64,000 bases of DNA from Candidatus Methylomirabilota bacterium (GTDB lineage: Bacteria; Methylomirabilota; Methylomirabilia; Rokubacteriales; CSP1-6), in NCBI GenBank assembly GCA_035709005.1, contig DASTFB010000041.1, positions 1 through 64,000 of the forward strand. Reading direction: 5' to 3'. Positions within the stretch are counted from its first letter, which is position 1. Every line of letters begins with the position of its first letter. The notes under the pieces are model-generated. The model searched no databases. It saw only the letters and a list, made by a program, of their open reading frames with translations, and was not told the DNA's origin. Both the position numbers and the translations under genes were made by a program. Positions 1-59,545 of this stretch are shown piece after piece.

Positions 1-74
1 TGCCCTCCGGCACCACAGGGCGCCAGCATGCCGGCGATGATCGCGACGAGGACGACGAGGGGCGCGCGCCTCAT
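1..74 (-). CDS. N-terminus of an exported protein (partial)
   Basis: An ATG on the minus strand at 74 opens a frame that runs off the left edge of the window. The 24 visible residues begin MRRAPLVVLVAIIAGMLAPC: a short basic start, a hydrophobic core and a Cys. This reads as a secretion signal. The residue before the Cys is Pro, which is poor for a lipobox, so lipoprotein status is doubtful. Function cannot be told from this fragment. Confidence 0.45.
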   Translation of the reverse strand, partial: MRRAPLVVLVAIIAGMLAPCGAGG

Positions 75-353
75 GGGCAAGTTTCGTCTGCTCGGTCCGG
101 AGTGGCGCCCATGGCGCCCCGATCTTCGCCAGTCGTCGAACTATAATTCGACCCCGGGATAGGCTGGTCTGGATATCCCGCAGATGCTGCGGGTGACCGC
201 TGCCTATCACCGAATCGAAACCGCTTGCCTATTCGCTCTTTGCCTTCTCTTTCCAGCCATTCGGTCGAGCACGGCGCTGCTGCACGATCTGGATATGCTG
301 CAGCACTCTGCAGCCCATCCCGTCGCGTTTGCATTCAAACACGGCGAGAGGAG
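75..353. other. Intergenic stretch, no convincing gene
   Basis: The 279 bases between the exported-protein start and the integrase stop hold no frame that looks coding. They are less GC-rich than the surroundings and contain an 18-bp inverted repeat (135-152). The octamer ctggatat occurs twice, near 171 and 288. I see no integron attC-like site here. Confidence 0.4.
135..152. repeat. Short inverted repeat, possible operator
   Basis: The sequence gtcgaa-ctataa-ttcgac has perfect 6-bp arms around an AT-rich centre. It lies about 60 bases upstream of the minus-strand exported-protein start. Its centre read on the minus strand contains a TATAGT-like -10 element, so it could be a promoter overlapped by an operator. 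No functional evidence beyond symmetry. Confidence 0.3.
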
Positions 354-1361
354 TCATGGCGCGAACATCCTATCCGCCGGGCTCCGGACGGCGGCAGGGC
401 CGCGGTTGAGGGCGTGGGTATAGATCATGGTGGTGGCGACGTCGCGGTGGCCGAGCAGTTCCTGTACGGTCCGGATGTCGTGGCCGTCCTCGAGCAGGTG
501 CGTCGCGAACGAGTGGCGAAGCGTGTGAGGGGCCGCGCGCTTGGCGATCCCGGCCCGCCGGACGGCACTCTTCACGGCACGCTGGAGGACCGACTCGTGC
601 AGGTGGTGTCGACGTACCTGGCTGGTCAGGCGGTCTCGATAGACACGCGTGGCCGGGAAGACCCACTGCCAGGCCCATTCCCGGCCGGCATTCGGATATT
701 TCCTGAGGAGAGCAGTCGGCAACGCCACCCAACCTGCACCTGCCGCCAGATCGGCTCGATGCTGGGCCCGGACGACCTCGAGGTGTCGACCGAGATCGGC
801 CTTGGCGACGACCGGGAGCATTGTGACCCTGTCCTTGTCCCCCTTGCCACCCCGAACGAGGATCTGATTTGTCGTGAAGTCGACGTCCTGGACCCGGAGA
901 CGGCAACACTCGAGCACCCGCAGACCGGCACCATAAAGCAGGCAGGCCATCAGGCGGGGCTCGCCCTCGAGACGTTGGAGGATGGCCCGAACCTCCTCGC
1001 GTGTGAGCACGACCGGAAGTCGAACAGGTCGCTTGGCTCGGACGATCCCATCGAGCCAGGGCAGGTCGACCCCCAGCACGTCACGGTACAGGAACAGGAG
1101 CGCGCTGAGCGCCTGGTTCTGGGTGGAAGCGGCCACCCGGTCATCGACAGCCAGTGAGGTGAGAAACGCCGTCACCTCCGGAGCGCCCATCTCGGCAGGG
1201 TGGCGCTTGCCGTGAAAGACGATGAAGCGGCGGATCCAGGCGACGTAAGAGGCTTCGGTGCGTCGGCTGTAGTCGCGTGAGCGAACGGCGGCCCGCACTC
1301 GGTCCAAAAGCCGCGGCTTCGGCTGATCGACAGGCCCGGGCGCAACCGTTTCACACACCAT
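354..1361 (-). CDS. Integron-type tyrosine recombinase (IntI family), no cassette array seen
   Basis: This is a 335-residue site-specific tyrosine recombinase. It has an N-terminal SAM-like core-binding domain (about 20-105: [20 protein letters not shown]) and a C-terminal catalytic domain. The catalytic set is visible: Arg in [12 protein letters not shown], His-x-x-Arg in [11 protein letters not shown], and [14 protein letters not shown] supplying the second His and the nucleophilic Tyr. The segment [19 protein letters not shown] corresponds to the extra patch that separates integron integrases from XerC/D. Integrases of this kind recombine attI with attC sites of gene cassettes. The expected attI side is beyond 1361, but that space leads straight into a helicase gene and I found no attC-like structures. 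It is either a chromosomal integrase without cassettes or a relic. Confidence 0.85.
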
Positions 1362-1579
1362 CGGGCAGCGCCCGGCACCTGCCTCAGCCGGGTAGTGAGC
1401 CGGCGCACTCGATCGCAGAAGGGTCGCTGCGGCCGCCCCCTTTCGCTCGCGTCAGCACTATAGCCGACGTGGCGGACGCCGACAATGCTGGCGTCGGTTT
1501 ATCCAACCGATGGCTTTGCCACCCCCGCCGCGTCGCAATCTACTTGCACCGCTGGCGGCGTTCCTATAGAGATACACGT

Positions 1580-2992
1580 GTGGCGCGTGCTCACGCGCTG
1601 AGCTTCGATCGGGGCTCGCTGCGCCTCGACGCGCCGGCGACGGTGCAGGTGCCGCCCTACTTCGTCTGGGATGAGCGCGTCAGCGCCTGGCGCACGGCGG
1701 CCGTCAACCACTTCCGAATCTGCGAAGACGCCGCGACCTACCGGCTGCCGCTCGCCGACCAGGCGCCCCGCTTCTTCCCGGCCCCCTCGCTCAAGACGGC
1801 GCTGCCCCCACTCCGGCCCGACCAGCAGATGGCGATCGAGGCCTGGGAGCAGGCGGGCGGCCGCGGCGTGATCGTCAAGCCCACCGGCACGGGCAAGACC
1901 GAGATCGCGCTCTCGATCGTGGCCCGGCATCAGACGCCGACCCTGGTGGTCGCGCCGCTCCGCGACCTCATGTACCAGTGGCAGCGCCGCATCAAGCAGG
2001 GGCTCGGCTTCGACGCCGGCGTGCTCGGCGACGGGCGGCAAGAGGTCTGGCCCATCACGGTGACCACGTACGACAGCGCCTGGATCCACATGAAGGACAT
2101 CGGCAACCGGTTCCGGCTGATCGTGTACGACGAGGTCCACCACCTGCCCGGGCCCGTCCAGCACGAGAGCGCGCTCGACTGTCTGGCTCCGCTCCGGCTT
2201 GGCCTCAGCGCGACGCCCTGGCGGGCCGACGGCCGGGACGCGATGCTGGCCGAGCTGGTCGGTCCCATCGTGTACCAGGAGGATCTGGCCCAGGCGCGCG
2301 GCCACACGGTGGCCGATTACGTGATCGTGCGGGTGCCCATCTACCTCACCGAGGAGGAGCAGGCCGAGTTCGACGAGCTGTCGCGGAGCATCCGGCACTA
2401 CGTGGCGGCCTGCCGGCTGGAGGAGGGAAGCTTCGACTGGAGGGACATGGCCCGGCGCTCCCGCGCCGATCCCCAGGCCCGCGAGATCCTCCGGCGCTGG
2501 CGGCGCAAGCTGGCCATCGTCAACCGCTCGGCCGAGAAGCTGCGCGTGCTGGAGGACGTCTTTCGCCTGCACCCGGACGAGCCCGTCATCGTCTTCACGG
2601 CCTCCAACCGGATGGCCCTGGACGTGTCGGCGCGGTTCCTGATCCCGGCCCTCACCGCCCACTCCGACAAGCACGAGCGCAACCGGGTGCTGGACGCCTT
2701 CGCGGCCGGTCGGATCAAGGCGCTGGCCGCCTGCGAGGTCCTCAACGAGGGCTGGGACGCGCCCGCCGTGAAGGTGGGCGTCGTGCTGGGCGGCGAGAAG
2801 GGGGTGCGCGAGGCCGTGCAGCGGCTGGGCCGCCTCTTGCGGAGATCGGGAGACCGCACCGCCCGGCTCTACGAGGTCGTGGTCCAGGAGACTCCGGACG
2901 TTGCCCGGGCGCGACGTCGGGGAACGGTCGATGCTTACCGCCGCGCTACGCGTCTATCACTGGGACAGGCGAACCAGCTCGATCTCTTCTGA
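1580..2992 (+). CDS. XPB/Rad25-like superfamily 2 DNA helicase
   Basis: This is a DNA-dependent ATPase/helicase of the XPB type, about 470 residues from a GTG at 1580. I chose that start because the family-like N-terminus (LSFDRGSLRLD) begins just after it; longer frames back to 1277 run into the integrase. Visible motifs: Walker A PTGTGKTE (about 102-108), DEVH box (184-187), motif III SAT (210-212) and motif VI QRLGRLLRR (414-422). Where XPB proteins carry the RED triplet after motif III, this one reads R-A-D (215-217). The next gene overlaps its end by 62 bases and is a Bax1 relative, the known archaeal XPB partner, so the two probably act together in DNA repair or cleavage. Confidence 0.9.
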   Translation: MARAHALSFDRGSLRLDAPATVQVPPYFVWDERVSAWRTAAVNHFRICEDAATYRLPLADQAPRFFPAPSLKTALPPLRPDQQMAIEAWEQAGGRGVIVKPTGTGKTEIALSIVARHQTPTLVVAPLRDLMYQWQRRIKQGLGFDAGVLGDGRQEVWPITVTTYDSAWIHMKDIGNRFRLIVYDEVHHLPGPVQHESALDCLAPLRLGLSATPWRADGRDAMLAELVGPIVYQEDLAQARGHTVADYVIVRVPIYLTEEEQAEFDELSRSIRHYVAACRLEEGSFDWRDMARRSRADPQAREILRRWRRKLAIVNRSAEKLRVLEDVFRLHPDEPVIVFTASNRMALDVSARFLIPALTAHSDKHERNRVLDAFAAGRIKALAACEVLNEGWDAPAVKVGVVLGGEKGVREAVQRLGRLLRRSGDRTARLYEVVVQETPDVARARRRGTVDAYRRATRLSLGQANQLDLF

Positions 2993-4211
2993 CCGGCTCG
3001 AGAACGAGGTGCTGCCCGTTCTCGAGCCGGCGCTGGCCGTCTACCGCGGCGCGGTCGGCCAGACGCGGGGCGTCGTTCGGAATGCCTGCCGGCGGGCGCT
3101 GCGGGGACTGCGGCCCGATCGCGTGGAGCCGATGGTAAAGCTCCTCGACGACGTGGCCACCTACGAGTGGCCCGCTTCCGCCCGCTGCGCCGGGCGACGG
3201 GTAGAAGTCTTCGAGCGGGCGGCCGCGCGCCATCCGGTGCTCGACGCGGGCGCCGTCACCGCTCTGCTGGCCGAGGAATATAGGCCGCCACCGGCCGGGC
3301 ACGCCGAGGCCGTCGCCGCGCTCTACGCCGACTATCCCGAGTACCACCGCCTGACGGCCTTTCCAGCCGACTACACCGCCGAGCGGCTGCGTGCCGACTA
3401 CGATCTGGCCCAGGCCCAGGCGCTGCTCTACTCGGCCACGCGGGTGACGCTGGAGGCCGGGCGCGACTTCAAGCACATCCTTCGCTACGCCCGCCTGGCG
3501 AGGCTGCTCCATCGCGTGGAGCGGCTCCGGGGCGCGCCAGCCGGCCGGGAGCCGCGGAAGTCGTCAGGCAAGCTGGGAGGGCGCCGGCGTCGCCGGGCCG
3601 CCGCCGCGGCGGTGGTCCTCGCCGACGGGGGCTACCGCTTCGTGCTCGACGGGCCGAACTCGGTGCTGCGCCGGACGCGCGCCTACGGGGTGGACTTCTC
3701 GCGGTTCCTGGCCGCGCTGGTGCGGCTGCCCGACTGGCGGCTCCAGGCCGAGATCGAGCTGCGCCGGGGCTGGCGGCCCTTCACGCTCACGCTCGCTGCG
3801 GGCGCCGGCCTGGGGCTCGGGGCCACGCCGCCCGCCGAGTTCGACTCCACCCTGGAGGCGGCGATCGCTCGCAAATTCGGCCGGCAGCGGGAAGGTTGGC
3901 GGCTGGTGCGGGAGGGGGCGGTGCTCGACGTGGGAGGCAGCTTGCTGGTTCCGGACTTCGTGTTCCGCCACCGGGACGGAACCGAGGTGCTGCTGGAGAT
4001 CGTCGGATACTGGACGCCCGAGTACCTGGCCGACAAGCTGGGCAAGCTCGCGGCAGTCCGCGGCGTGAACCTCATCGTGGCCGTGCCCCGTCGGCTGGCC
4101 GTGCGGGCCGGCCGCCTCCCGGCGACGGTGCTGCCGTTCAAGCGCCGGCTGCTCCTCCGTGACCTCCTCCCGCGCCTGGAGGCGTTTCGCGGCCCTGCCG
4201 CCGGACGCTGA
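2931..4211 (+). CDS. DUF790 / Bax1-like nuclease partner of XPB
   Basis: A 426-residue protein of the DUF790 family, the bacterial equivalent of archaeal Bax1, which binds XPB and carries a nuclease domain. The ATG at 2931 is preferred because it gives an MLTAALRVYHW start similar to Bax1. An upstream TTG at 2901 is possible. The C-terminal part holds the nuclease-like signature: VPDFVF (Asp about 342), then EIVGYW (Glu about 356) and a Lys-rich helix (about 369-373). The segment around residues 190-220 is very basic (GKLGGRRRRRAAAAA), a likely DNA-contacting linker. Overlap with the helicase gene implies translational coupling and fixed stoichiometry. Confidence 0.85.
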   Translation: MLTAALRVYHWDRRTSSISSDRLENEVLPVLEPALAVYRGAVGQTRGVVRNACRRALRGLRPDRVEPMVKLLDDVATYEWPASARCAGRRVEVFERAAARHPVLDAGAVTALLAEEYRPPPAGHAEAVAALYADYPEYHRLTAFPADYTAERLRADYDLAQAQALLYSATRVTLEAGRDFKHILRYARLARLLHRVERLRGAPAGREPRKSSGKLGGRRRRRAAAAAVVLADGGYRFVLDGPNSVLRRTRAYGVDFSRFLAALVRLPDWRLQAEIELRRGWRPFTLTLAAGAGLGLGATPPAEFDSTLEAAIARKFGRQREGWRLVREGAVLDVGGSLLVPDFVFRHRDGTEVLLEIVGYWTPEYLADKLGKLAAVRGVNLIVAVPRRLAVRAGRLPATVLPFKRRLLLRDLLPRLEAFRGPAAGR

Positions 4212-4259
4212 ACCGCCGGGCGCTGAGCCCGGTGTATCATCGCGGAAAGGAGCGTAACC

Positions 4260-5444
4260 ATGCCCGACGCCGTCATCGTCTCCACCGCGCGAACCCCGAT
4301 CGGCCGTGCCTACCGCGGCGCTTTCAACAACACCCACGGCGCCGTGCTCGGCGGTCACGTCATCAAGCACGCCGTCGAGCGCGCCCGGCTGGACCCGGGC
4401 GAGGTCGAGGACGTCATCATGGGCTGCGCCATGCCAGAAGGCGCGACCGGTCACAACATCGCCCGGCAGGCGGCGATCCGCGCCGGGCTGCCCGTGACCA
4501 CCGCCGGCGTGACGGTCAATCGCTTCTGCTCCTCGGGTTTGCAGACGATCGCAATGGCGGCCCATCGCGTCATCGTCGATCGGGTACCGGTGGTCGTGGC
4601 CGGAGGCCTGGAATCCATCAGCCTGGTGCAGAACGAGCACATGAACCTGCATCGGTTCCGCGAGGCCTGGCTGGAGGAGCACAAGCCCGAGATCTACATG
4701 TCGATGATCGAGACGGCCGAGGTGGTGGCCAAGCGTTACTACGTCACCCGCGAGCGGCAGGACGAGTACGCCCTGGCCAGCCAGCAGCGCACGGCGGCCG
4801 CCCAGCGCGAAGGCCGCCTGGCCGCCGAGATCGTCCCCCTGCCGACGGTCAAGCTCGTCCAGGACAAGGCAACGGGCGAGGTGCGCGAGGAAGCGGTCAC
4901 GCTGACCCGCGACGAGGGCAACCGCCCCGACACCACGCTGGAGGGGTTGGCCGCGCTCAAGCCAGTGACCGGTGAGAAAGGTCATATCACCGCGGGCAAC
5001 GCGAGCCAGCTCTCGGACGGCGCGTCCGCGTGTGTCGTGATGGATGCCGGGCTCGCCGAGCGACGGGGGCTGCAGCCGCTGGGGATCTTCCGCGGCTTCA
5101 CCGTCGCCGCCTGCGAGCCGGACGAGATGGGGATCGGTCCCGTCTTCGCGGTGCCCCGGCTGCTCGAGCGGACGGGCATGCGGATGGACCAGATCGACCT
5201 CTGGGAGCTCAATGAGGCCTTCGCCGTGCAGGTTGTCTACTGTCGCGACCGGCTCGGCATCCCCATGGAGCGGCTCAACGTGGACGGTGGCGCCATCTCT
5301 ATCGGGCACCCGTACGGCATGAGTGGCGCGCGGCTGACCGGCCACGCGCTCATCGAGGGCAAGCGGCGGGGGGCCCAGTACGTCGTGGTCACCATGTGCA
5401 TCGGCGGGGGGATGGGGGCGGCCGGCCTGTTCGAGGTCGCCTGA
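4260..5444 (+). CDS. Acetyl-CoA acetyltransferase / thiolase
   Basis: A 394-residue thiolase that condenses two acyl-CoA units or cleaves 3-ketoacyl-CoA. The nucleophile is Cys90 in NRFCSSGLQ, with His350 in GHPYG and the general-base Cys380 in CIGGGMG; the NEAFA motif is near residue 320. Length and motifs are those of type I/II thiolases (FadA/AtoB/PhaA). An aaaggag ribosome site lies just upstream. Substrate chain length cannot be read from sequence. It starts a run with a carbonic anhydrase-like gene two bases downstream and an SDR gene facing it, and fits the acyl-CoA theme of the window. Confidence 0.95.
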
Positions 5445-5446
5445 AC

Positions 5447-5959
5447 GTGATCCGGTCCGTCCCCGGGCGCACGCCCCGGGTCCATCCCGGGGCCTGGGTG
5501 GATCCGGCCGCTCAGGTCATCGGCGACGTAGAGATCGGCGAGGCCTCCAGCATCTGGCCGGGAACCATCGTCCGAGGCGACCAGGACAACTACATTCGCA
5601 TCGGGCGCAACACGAACGTCCAGGACTGCTCGGTGCTGCACGTCACGCCGCAGTACCCCTGTCTGGTCGGCGACAACGTCACCATTGGCCACCGGTGCGT
5701 GGTCCACGCGTGCACCGTCAAGGACAACGTCCGGATCGGGATCGGCGCGGTGGTGCTCAACGGGGCGGTGGTGGAAGAGTGGGCTCAGGTCGGCGCGGGC
5801 GCGCTCGTGCCGCCGGGCAAGGTGGTGCCGTCGGGCTGGCTCGTCATGGGGGTGCCGGCCAAGCCTGTCCGGAAGATGAGCCAGGAAGAGCTCGACGACA
5901 TCGCGCGCAACGCCGTGGAGTACATCGAGCTCTGGCGGCGCGACTACGGCAACCGCTGA
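5447..5959 (+). CDS. Gamma-carbonic anhydrase family hexapeptide-repeat protein
   Basis: A 170-residue left-handed beta-helix protein of the gamma-carbonic anhydrase/YrdA/PaaY family. The GTG at 5447 lies two bases after the thiolase stop, so the pair is co-translated. Hexapeptide repeats run through residues 15-140. The three expected zinc-ligand histidines are present in CSVLHV and GHRCVVHAC. Members are trimeric; some hydrate CO2, while PaaY-type members act as CoA-thioester hydrolases. Position directly behind a thiolase makes a thioester role plausible, but that is inference. Confidence 0.9.
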   Translation: MIRSVPGRTPRVHPGAWVDPAAQVIGDVEIGEASSIWPGTIVRGDQDNYIRIGRNTNVQDCSVLHVTPQYPCLVGDNVTIGHRCVVHACTVKDNVRIGIGAVVLNGAVVEEWAQVGAGALVPPGKVVPSGWLVMGVPAKPVRKMSQEELDDIARNAVEYIELWRRDYGNR

Positions 5960-5977
5960 GGACGGCGCGCGGCTGCG

Positions 5978-6760
5978 CTAGCCCGCGGGATCGCCGGCGT
6001 TGACGGCGATGCACTGGCCCGAGATGTTCCGGGCCAGGGGACTGCAGAGAAAGACGGCCATGGCCACGATGTCCTCGGCGGTGACCATGCGCTTGAGCGG
6101 CGAGCGCTCGATCCAGCTCCGGCGCATCTCCTCCACCGGCACGCCCCGCACCTCGGCCTGGCCGGCGATCACCCGGTCGATGCGATCGCCTTCCACGGCC
6201 CCGGGGGCGATCGCGTTGACGGTGATGTTGTGGGGCGCCAGCTCCAGCGCCATGCCGTAGGTCATGCCGACCTGCCCGGCCTTGGCCGAGCAGTAGCCGA
6301 TCCGGTAGGGCAGGCCGCGACGCCCGGCCATCGAGGAGATGTTGACGATCGCGCCGCCGCCGGCCTTGATCAGCTCGGGCGTCGCGAACCGGATCATCAT
6401 GTACGACGTCGTGAGGCAGGAGTTGATCGTGTAGAACCAGTCCTCGGTCGTGTACTCCTGGATCTTCTTGGTCGGGCCCCCGTCGCCGGCGTTGTTGACG
6501 AGCAGGTGCACGGCGCCGAAGGCCCGGACCGCGGCCTCCACCGTCTGCCGGGCCCCCTCCTCGGTCGCCACGTCGGCGACGAGGGCCACCGCCTTGCCGC
6601 CGGCCTTCGTGACCAGCTTCGCCGTCTCCCCGACGAGCCCGGCCGAGCGGGCCGCGCACACCACGCCGGCGCCTTCGTCGGCGAAGCGCTGGCTGGCGAC
6701 CCGGCCGATCCCCTTGCTGGCTCCCGTGATGATGGCGACCCGGCCTGTCAGCAGTCCCAT
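5978..6760 (-). CDS. SDR-family NAD(P)-dependent oxidoreductase
   Basis: A 260-residue short-chain dehydrogenase/reductase. It shows TGASKGIG (12-19) for cofactor binding, NNAG (89-92), Ser142/143, and the catalytic YCSAK (Tyr156, Lys160). The start at 6760 has a good gggag site; longer in-frame Met codons upstream give only a non-SDR tail. Substrate is unknown; relatives include 3-ketoacyl reductases and acyl-CoA-linked alcohol dehydrogenases. It converges on the thiolase/carbonic-anhydrase pair (19-base gap) and diverges from the pcp gene. Confidence 0.9.
   Translation of the reverse strand: MGLLTGRVAIITGASKGIGRVASQRFADEGAGVVCAARSAGLVGETAKLVTKAGGKAVALVADVATEEGARQTVEAAVRAFGAVHLLVNNAGDGGPTKKIQEYTTEDWFYTINSCLTTSYMMIRFATPELIKAGGGAIVNISSMAGRRGLPYRIGYCSAKAGQVGMTYGMALELAPHNITVNAIAPGAVEGDRIDRVIAGQAEVRGVPVEEMRRSWIERSPLKRMVTAEDIVAMAVFLCSPLARNISGQCIAVNAGDPAG

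Positions 6761-56653: not shown

Positions 56654-59545
<2,892 letters not shown>

Follow-up and report, generated by a model that had tools for sequence, protein, structure and literature searches.

A Rokubacterial XPB-Bax1 helicase-nuclease pair carries a candidate sliding-clamp-binding motif within its gene overlap

What does an XPB-Bax1 helicase-nuclease pair, a partnership characterized in archaea, do in Rokubacteria, which are bacteria of soil and groundwater? We addressed this question at one locus in a window of 64,000 nucleotides (positions 1 to 64,000 of contig DASTFB010000041.1, assembly GCA_035709005.1, forward strand). An original prediction, made from the sequence alone, had recognized such a pair there and had singled out two oddities: an R-A-D triplet in place of the RED motif of XPB, and a neighboring integron integrase. 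The pair was correctly identified, and both oddities turned out to be ordinary. Our main finding is a feature that the prediction did not contain, namely that the helicase ends in the pentapeptide QLDLF.

The locus encodes an XPB helicase and a Bax1 nuclease

The two genes overlap by 62 nt, in agreement with the overlap that had been predicted, and were annotated as follows.

1580..2992, + strand: XPB-family SF2 helicase, 470 aa, GTG start at 1580 and TGA stop ending at 2992; profile, PDB and AF2 matches
1580..2992, + strand: XPB domain layout, consisting of the damage recognition domain (DRD), two RecA domains, a thumb insertion and a C-terminal tail
2931..4211, + strand: Bax1 (DUF790) nuclease, 426 aa, ATG start at 2931 within the xpb gene
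2931..2992, + strand: xpb/bax1 overlap, 62 nt, in differing frames; kept at 13 of 13 clade loci
3855..3857, + strand: Bax1 Glu309, equivalent to AfBax1 Glu275, in the DSTLE motif
3954..3956, + strand: Bax1 Asp342, equivalent to AfBax1 Asp305, in the PDF motif
3996..3998, + strand: Bax1 Glu356, equivalent to AfBax1 Glu318, in the EIxGYWT motif

The helicase matched the Pfam families XPB_DRD (PF18458, the N-terminal damage recognition domain; 4.5e-8), ERCC3_RAD25_C (3.4e-6), ResIII (1.6e-22) and Helicase_C (2.7e-12). The XPB_DRD match exceeded its curated cut-off, and the match to the ERCC3/RAD25 C-terminal domain was just at its cut-off. The best PDB chains were StXPB (6p4f, 2.4e-82) and AfXPB (2fwr, 1.1e-78), with RadD far weaker (5e-8). 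AlphaFold (AF2) models of the two proteins had mean pLDDT values of 87-88, from input alignments that left out nine rows from plasmid records. In the comparison with archaeal XPB-Bax1 structures that had been proposed as a check, the helicase model superposed best on 6p4f_C, the StXPB chain (TM 0.82 by query/0.87, rmsd 3.1 A) of an XPB-Bax1-forked-DNA crystal (PMC7672443). The motor motifs were intact (Walker A GTGKT, DEVHH and motif VI QRLGRLLR), and their key residues were invariant in an alignment of 44 sequences. The thumb appeared in the model as a helical insertion, with Trp in the column of StXPB F278, the aromatic wedge. As in the window, the wedge residue is Trp across its clade and in the majority of other bacteria; it is Tyr in haloarchaea, and Phe in Thermoproteota and the crystal-structure sequences.

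The downstream protein matched almost the whole DUF790 model (247 bits, cut-off 28.8; 3e-73), and its PDB matches were Bax1 chains only (8gy8, 5e-25; 6p4f/6p4w, 4e-21); 8gy8 was labelled as an IF-2 homolog in the sequence match and as Pyrococcus Bax1 in the fold match. For its AF2 model (pLDDT 88), all eight PDB fold matches below 0.001 were Bax1 (1e-23 to 2e-20); the global superposition was loose (rmsd about 11 A), which fits domains joined by flexible linkers. The nuclease triad has been mapped in AfBax1 to E275, D305 and E318 (PMC7293015). The two nuclease residues named in the prediction, Asp342 and Glu356, are intact and correctly numbered from the ATG at 2931, and Glu309 completes the triad; all three were invariant among 48 aligned Bax1 sequences. 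At the proposed second, N-terminal site (AfBax1 D133 and E135), the Asp was invariant (D134 here) and the position of E135 was non-acidic. We thus found neither a helicase from outside XPB nor a partner without a nuclease fold; StXPB/AfXPB and Bax1 were the best matches, and the XPB-Bax1 assignment holds for both genes by Pfam, PDB and AF2 matches. At one related locus (L006:3391-4173), a second, partial bax1 with the nuclease part only lies downstream of a complete copy.

Distribution and descent of the pair

The DUF790 gene of the pair was found in 16 of the 95 genomes of the window's phylum. It also occurs among Planctomycetota, Armatimonadota, Chloroflexota and Myxococcota, as well as in other groups. 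One archaeal phylum had it in 25 of 29 genomes, and plasmids of Deinococcus and haloarchaea carry it too. A 2005 study had reported DUF790 in Archaea and Cyanobacteria, usually with SSL2-type helicases (PMC1189080). At the loci examined, xpb preceded bax1 in the same orientation wherever both genes were found, and the phylogenetic trees of the two proteins gave the same clades, indicating that the pair travels as a unit.

The window's clade (hereafter clade A) had a support of 100 in both the XPB and the Bax1 trees, with Thermoproteota apart. Next to it stood the Planctomycetes, with a support of 100 in the XPB tree and of 99, together with Armatimonadota, in the Bax1 tree. A transfer from archaea that phylogeny could date, as the original prediction had envisaged, did not emerge: the pair falls within a Rokubacterial clade whose sister group is Planctomycetes/Armatimonadota and which lies far from Thermoproteota and the crystal-structure sequences. 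A recent archaeal transfer is unsupported by these trees, which are unrooted and leave the ultimate direction open. Rokubacteria also hold a second, distant type of pair, which grouped with Myxococcota. One genome (G082) carries both types (L053 and L058), the second of them lacking the RED motif (R-D-A).

The R-A-D triplet is a common natural variant

In the DNA-bound structure of StXPB, the 'RED motif' is R205-D206-D207, of which the Arg contacts the backbone phosphate and both Asp touch unpaired or mismatched bases (PMC7672443). The motif has been termed 'absolutely conserved' (PMC3353954), and the original prediction had treated its reading in the window as a notable departure.

2222..2230, + strand: R-A-D in the place of the RED motif, XPB residues 215-217, aligned to the RED of AfXPB; a clade-wide natural variant

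We compared the middle residue across 54 XPBs. It was Glu in Thermoproteota and AfXPB and Asp in StXPB. Among the 12 aligned members of clade A, 11 (including the window) read R-A-D and one R-S-D; all five Deinococcus sequences read R-S-D; and the haloarchaeal plasmid copies (n = 4) had A, T or P in the middle, with R-A-D in two. The flanking Arg and Asp were retained in Thermoproteota, the crystal-structure sequences, clade A, Deinococcus and the haloarchaeal copies, and several other bacterial XPBs lacked the motif. Thus the middle residue of a supposedly absolutely conserved motif varies, and the motif is wholly lost in some bacterial XPBs linked to Bax1.

The window XPB does not read R-E-D in the strict sense and does read R-x-D. 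Because the strict reading also fails for StXPB, an accepted and structurally solved XPB, R-E-D is not a defining test of the family. With R-D-D in StXPB, R-A-D or R-S-D throughout clade A, and R-A-D on haloarchaeal plasmids, the triplet is a common natural variant, archaea included, and its claimed distinctiveness falls away. We also considered whether the middle residue covaries with the wedge, acidic residues going with Phe and small ones with Trp; the tree showed only two independent changes, too few to support such a link.

Clade A helicases end in a predicted clamp-binding motif

The gene overlap encodes a tail that sets the helicases of clade A apart.

2930..2989, + strand: clade-specific XPB C-terminal extension (DAYRRATRLSLGQANQLDLF), of low predicted confidence and flexible
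2975..2989, + strand: QLDLF at the extreme XPB C-terminus, by motif a canonical beta-sliding-clamp-binding pentapeptide

Directly before the stop codon, the XPBs of clade A read QLDLF at 11 of 13 distinct loci and QLDLL at the remaining two, and at all 13 the xpb gene runs 62 nt into bax1 before it stops. Other XPB-Bax1 groups have overlaps of 1, 14 or about 29 nt, or a gap between the genes. Outside clade A, no clamp-like motif was found in the last 45 residues of the XPBs examined, a comparison that covered archaeal, haloarchaeal, Deinococcus, Planctomycete, Chloroflexi, Myxococcota and second-clade Rokubacterial XPBs. In a scan of 0.95 Mb of retrieved DNA, which contained 45,434 stop codons, QL[SD]LF occurred immediately before a stop 16 times (repeat fetches included), and every occurrence was a C-terminus of a clade A XPB. 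A search of the XPB and Bax1 relatives for PIP boxes gave just one match, internal to the Chloroflexi XPB of L016. The tail was predicted by AF2 with low confidence, as expected of a flexible end.

QLDLF has been termed a canonical clamp-binding motif in Pol Y1 of B. subtilis (PMC11381352), and the bacterial beta-clamp-binding consensus is QL(S/D)LF, at the C-terminus (PMC9690074). The host genome carries dnaN as well as uvrA and uvrB. In its DnaE the clamp motif is matched less well, by QASFF, and no clamp motif was found in its sole Pol IV-type match. A literature search for XPB with the clamp or DnaN brought to light, among the results listed, no paper that evidently joins the two. Two of the clade A loci (L007 and L009), both with QLDLL tails, come from MAGs labelled Bacillota whose pairs nest in the Rokubacterial clade, which would reflect either transfer or a misassigned MAG.

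Alternative explanations for the tail and the pair

The motif lies wholly within the overlap, where each nucleotide serves two frames. This could mean that we are looking at a conventional XPB-Bax1 repair pair unconnected with the clamp, in which QLDLF is a by-product of selection on the N-terminus of Bax1. The Bax1 frame over the motif is indeed conserved as well (SSISS at 11 of the 13 clade loci), membership in the family requires no clamp, and part of the conservation of the motif may come from Bax1, since the stretch is dual-coding and has few substitutions. However, four sites vary within the 15-nt motif, and three of them are silent for XPB but alter Bax1 (SSIFF in L062 and NSIFS in L007), the fourth changing the XPB residue from F to L; the three substitutions thus preserve QLDL(F/L) at the expense of the other frame. 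The SSISS of the clade also deviates from the family consensus, in which Pro is common: of 36 rows from the rest of the family, 29 have it as the last of these residues, as against 0 of 12 in clade A. Such a departure would be expected if Bax1 had yielded to a demand on XPB. Moreover, the peptide agrees exactly with the consensus for bacterial clamp binding and sits at the very C-terminus. We therefore regard an origin as a mere by-product as unlikely. The substitutions support, and do not prove, that constraint acts on the XPB frame, the sample being small and both frames being conserved, and so short a tail could lack a function.

The original prediction had further suggested a role in repair or defense, because the pair sits beside an integron integrase.

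354-1361, - strand: integron integrase, full length (TIGR02249, 459 bits, 315/315)

If the neighboring integron had captured the pair as a gene cassette, the position of the genes would be apt, in that they occupy the place of a would-be first cassette, divergent from a full-length intI. Yet this genome alone had the integrase next to the pair; it was absent at every relative locus examined. The window held no attC site and no attC-like box pair, only one isolated upstream 7-mer; no core site was found at 4151-4300, where bax1 ends, and the next gene is 48 nt away. Integron integrases above the cut-off occurred in 16 of 60 related genomes, so an integrase as a chance neighbor is unsurprising. 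Cassette capture is accordingly extremely improbable, and the suggested association with the integron is not upheld. No Rfam elements were detected in 1-6000, and a search for flanking target-site duplications gave only GC-rich repeats of low identity, with nothing duplication-like.

An anti-phage system that processively cuts foreign DNA would fit the patchy presence of the pair in its phylum (16/95 genomes) and its carriage on plasmids of Deinococcus and haloarchaea. Neighboring genes in a few distant relatives also match candidate defense models, the DUF4143 ATPase of L061 matching PDC-S01 and the SNF2 helicase of L060 having ZorD/DpdE-like matches. Against this, other copies of the pair have mostly transporter and metabolic genes as neighbors, which vary from one genome to the next, with no defense island, and among the clade A neighbors scanned the only defense-like match was a weak one to a Uma2-type protein. 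Bax1 matched no PADLOC model, the XPB matches are to helicase parts of other proteins, and the searches used detected nothing on contigs of phages or viruses. We consider a defense function very unlikely; of the two roles suggested, repair stays plausible. A phage or viral origin of the pair was likewise considered and gave no match. At the two loci of the second Rokubacterial type, L060 and L061, the neighbors include an impB/mucB/samB-family gene in addition to the SNF2 helicase and the DUF4143 ATPase, which hints at a repair or defense context there.

A possible replication-linked role

Judging from motif, fold and co-inheritance, the pair is probably a clamp-tethered XPB-Bax1 helicase-nuclease for replication-linked repair, with predicted binding to DnaN. 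The overlapping frames of xpb and bax1 suggest coupled translation, and the fold and the shared inheritance of the two proteins suggest a heterodimer as in the crystals. The XPB tail would tether this complex to DnaN. With its motor, wedge and thumb intact, XPB, a 3'-5' SF2 motor, may open a fork, a bubble, a gap edge or a distorted site, and the PD-(D/E)XK domain of Bax1, whose triad is intact, may then incise the exposed strand near the junction of double- and single-stranded DNA, as in archaea. The complex would most likely act at replication forks or at clamp-marked gaps and repair patches, alongside the UvrA and UvrB of the cell. The uvrA gene is complete in the window (56666-59467, + strand), and a second uvrA homologue is present on another contig.

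We also lean, somewhat less firmly, toward a history in which the C-terminus of XPB lengthened into the beginning of bax1 and came to carry QLDLF, so that overprinting would have re-wired XPB-Bax1 to the sliding clamp in this lineage and yielded a replication-coupled XPB helicase-nuclease. Such a replication-coupled mode is not described for any XPB in the literature that we found. In archaea, the repair phenotypes of XPB-Bax1 are weak, and a clamp-binding tail offers a concrete, testable hypothesis, replication-linked repair, for the role of XPB-Bax1 in vivo.

Comparison with known systems

The gene pair is the same as that of Archaeoglobus fulgidus, Sulfurisphaera tokodaii and Saccharolobus (PMC7293015, PMC7672443). 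Shared features are the DRD, HD1, thumb and HD2 of the helicase, the NTD, CRD and nuclease domains of Bax1, the catalytic triad, the R and D of the RED motif, and the aromatic wedge. In contrast to the archaeal pairs, the window's pair has a bacterial host, R-A-D instead of R-E-D or R-D-D, Trp instead of Phe as the wedge, a 62-nt overlap and a QLDLF tail, and it lacks an acid at the place of AfBax1 Glu135. The Deinococcus pairs resemble it in their bacterial host, in having the helicase immediately upstream of DUF790, in their triplet (R-S-D) and in the Trp wedge, whereas their overlap is 1 or 14 nt and they have no clamp motif; identity to the window is about 35-37% for XPB and 30% for Bax1. 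The XPB of Mycobacterium and Kineococcus is likewise a bacterial XPB-family helicase, with another N-terminal domain, no thumb and no known Bax1 partner (PMC3353954); unlike this type, the window XPB has the archaeal DRD and the thumb.

Clamp tethering of repair nucleases has precedent in NucS and RecBCD, which our pair would parallel if the proposed tethering is true. EndoMS/NucS is a repair nuclease of archaea and some bacteria whose C-terminal peptide binds PCNA in archaea and beta in Actinobacteria (PMC8228993). Its architecture is unrelated, and it carries the clamp motif on the nuclease, whereas here the motif is on the helicase partner. RecBCD, whose proteins are unrelated to XPB-Bax1, is a helicase-nuclease complex with a clamp-binding motif, QVEMEF in RecB (PMC13254535); that motif is internal, in contrast to the C-terminal QLDLF of the window XPB.
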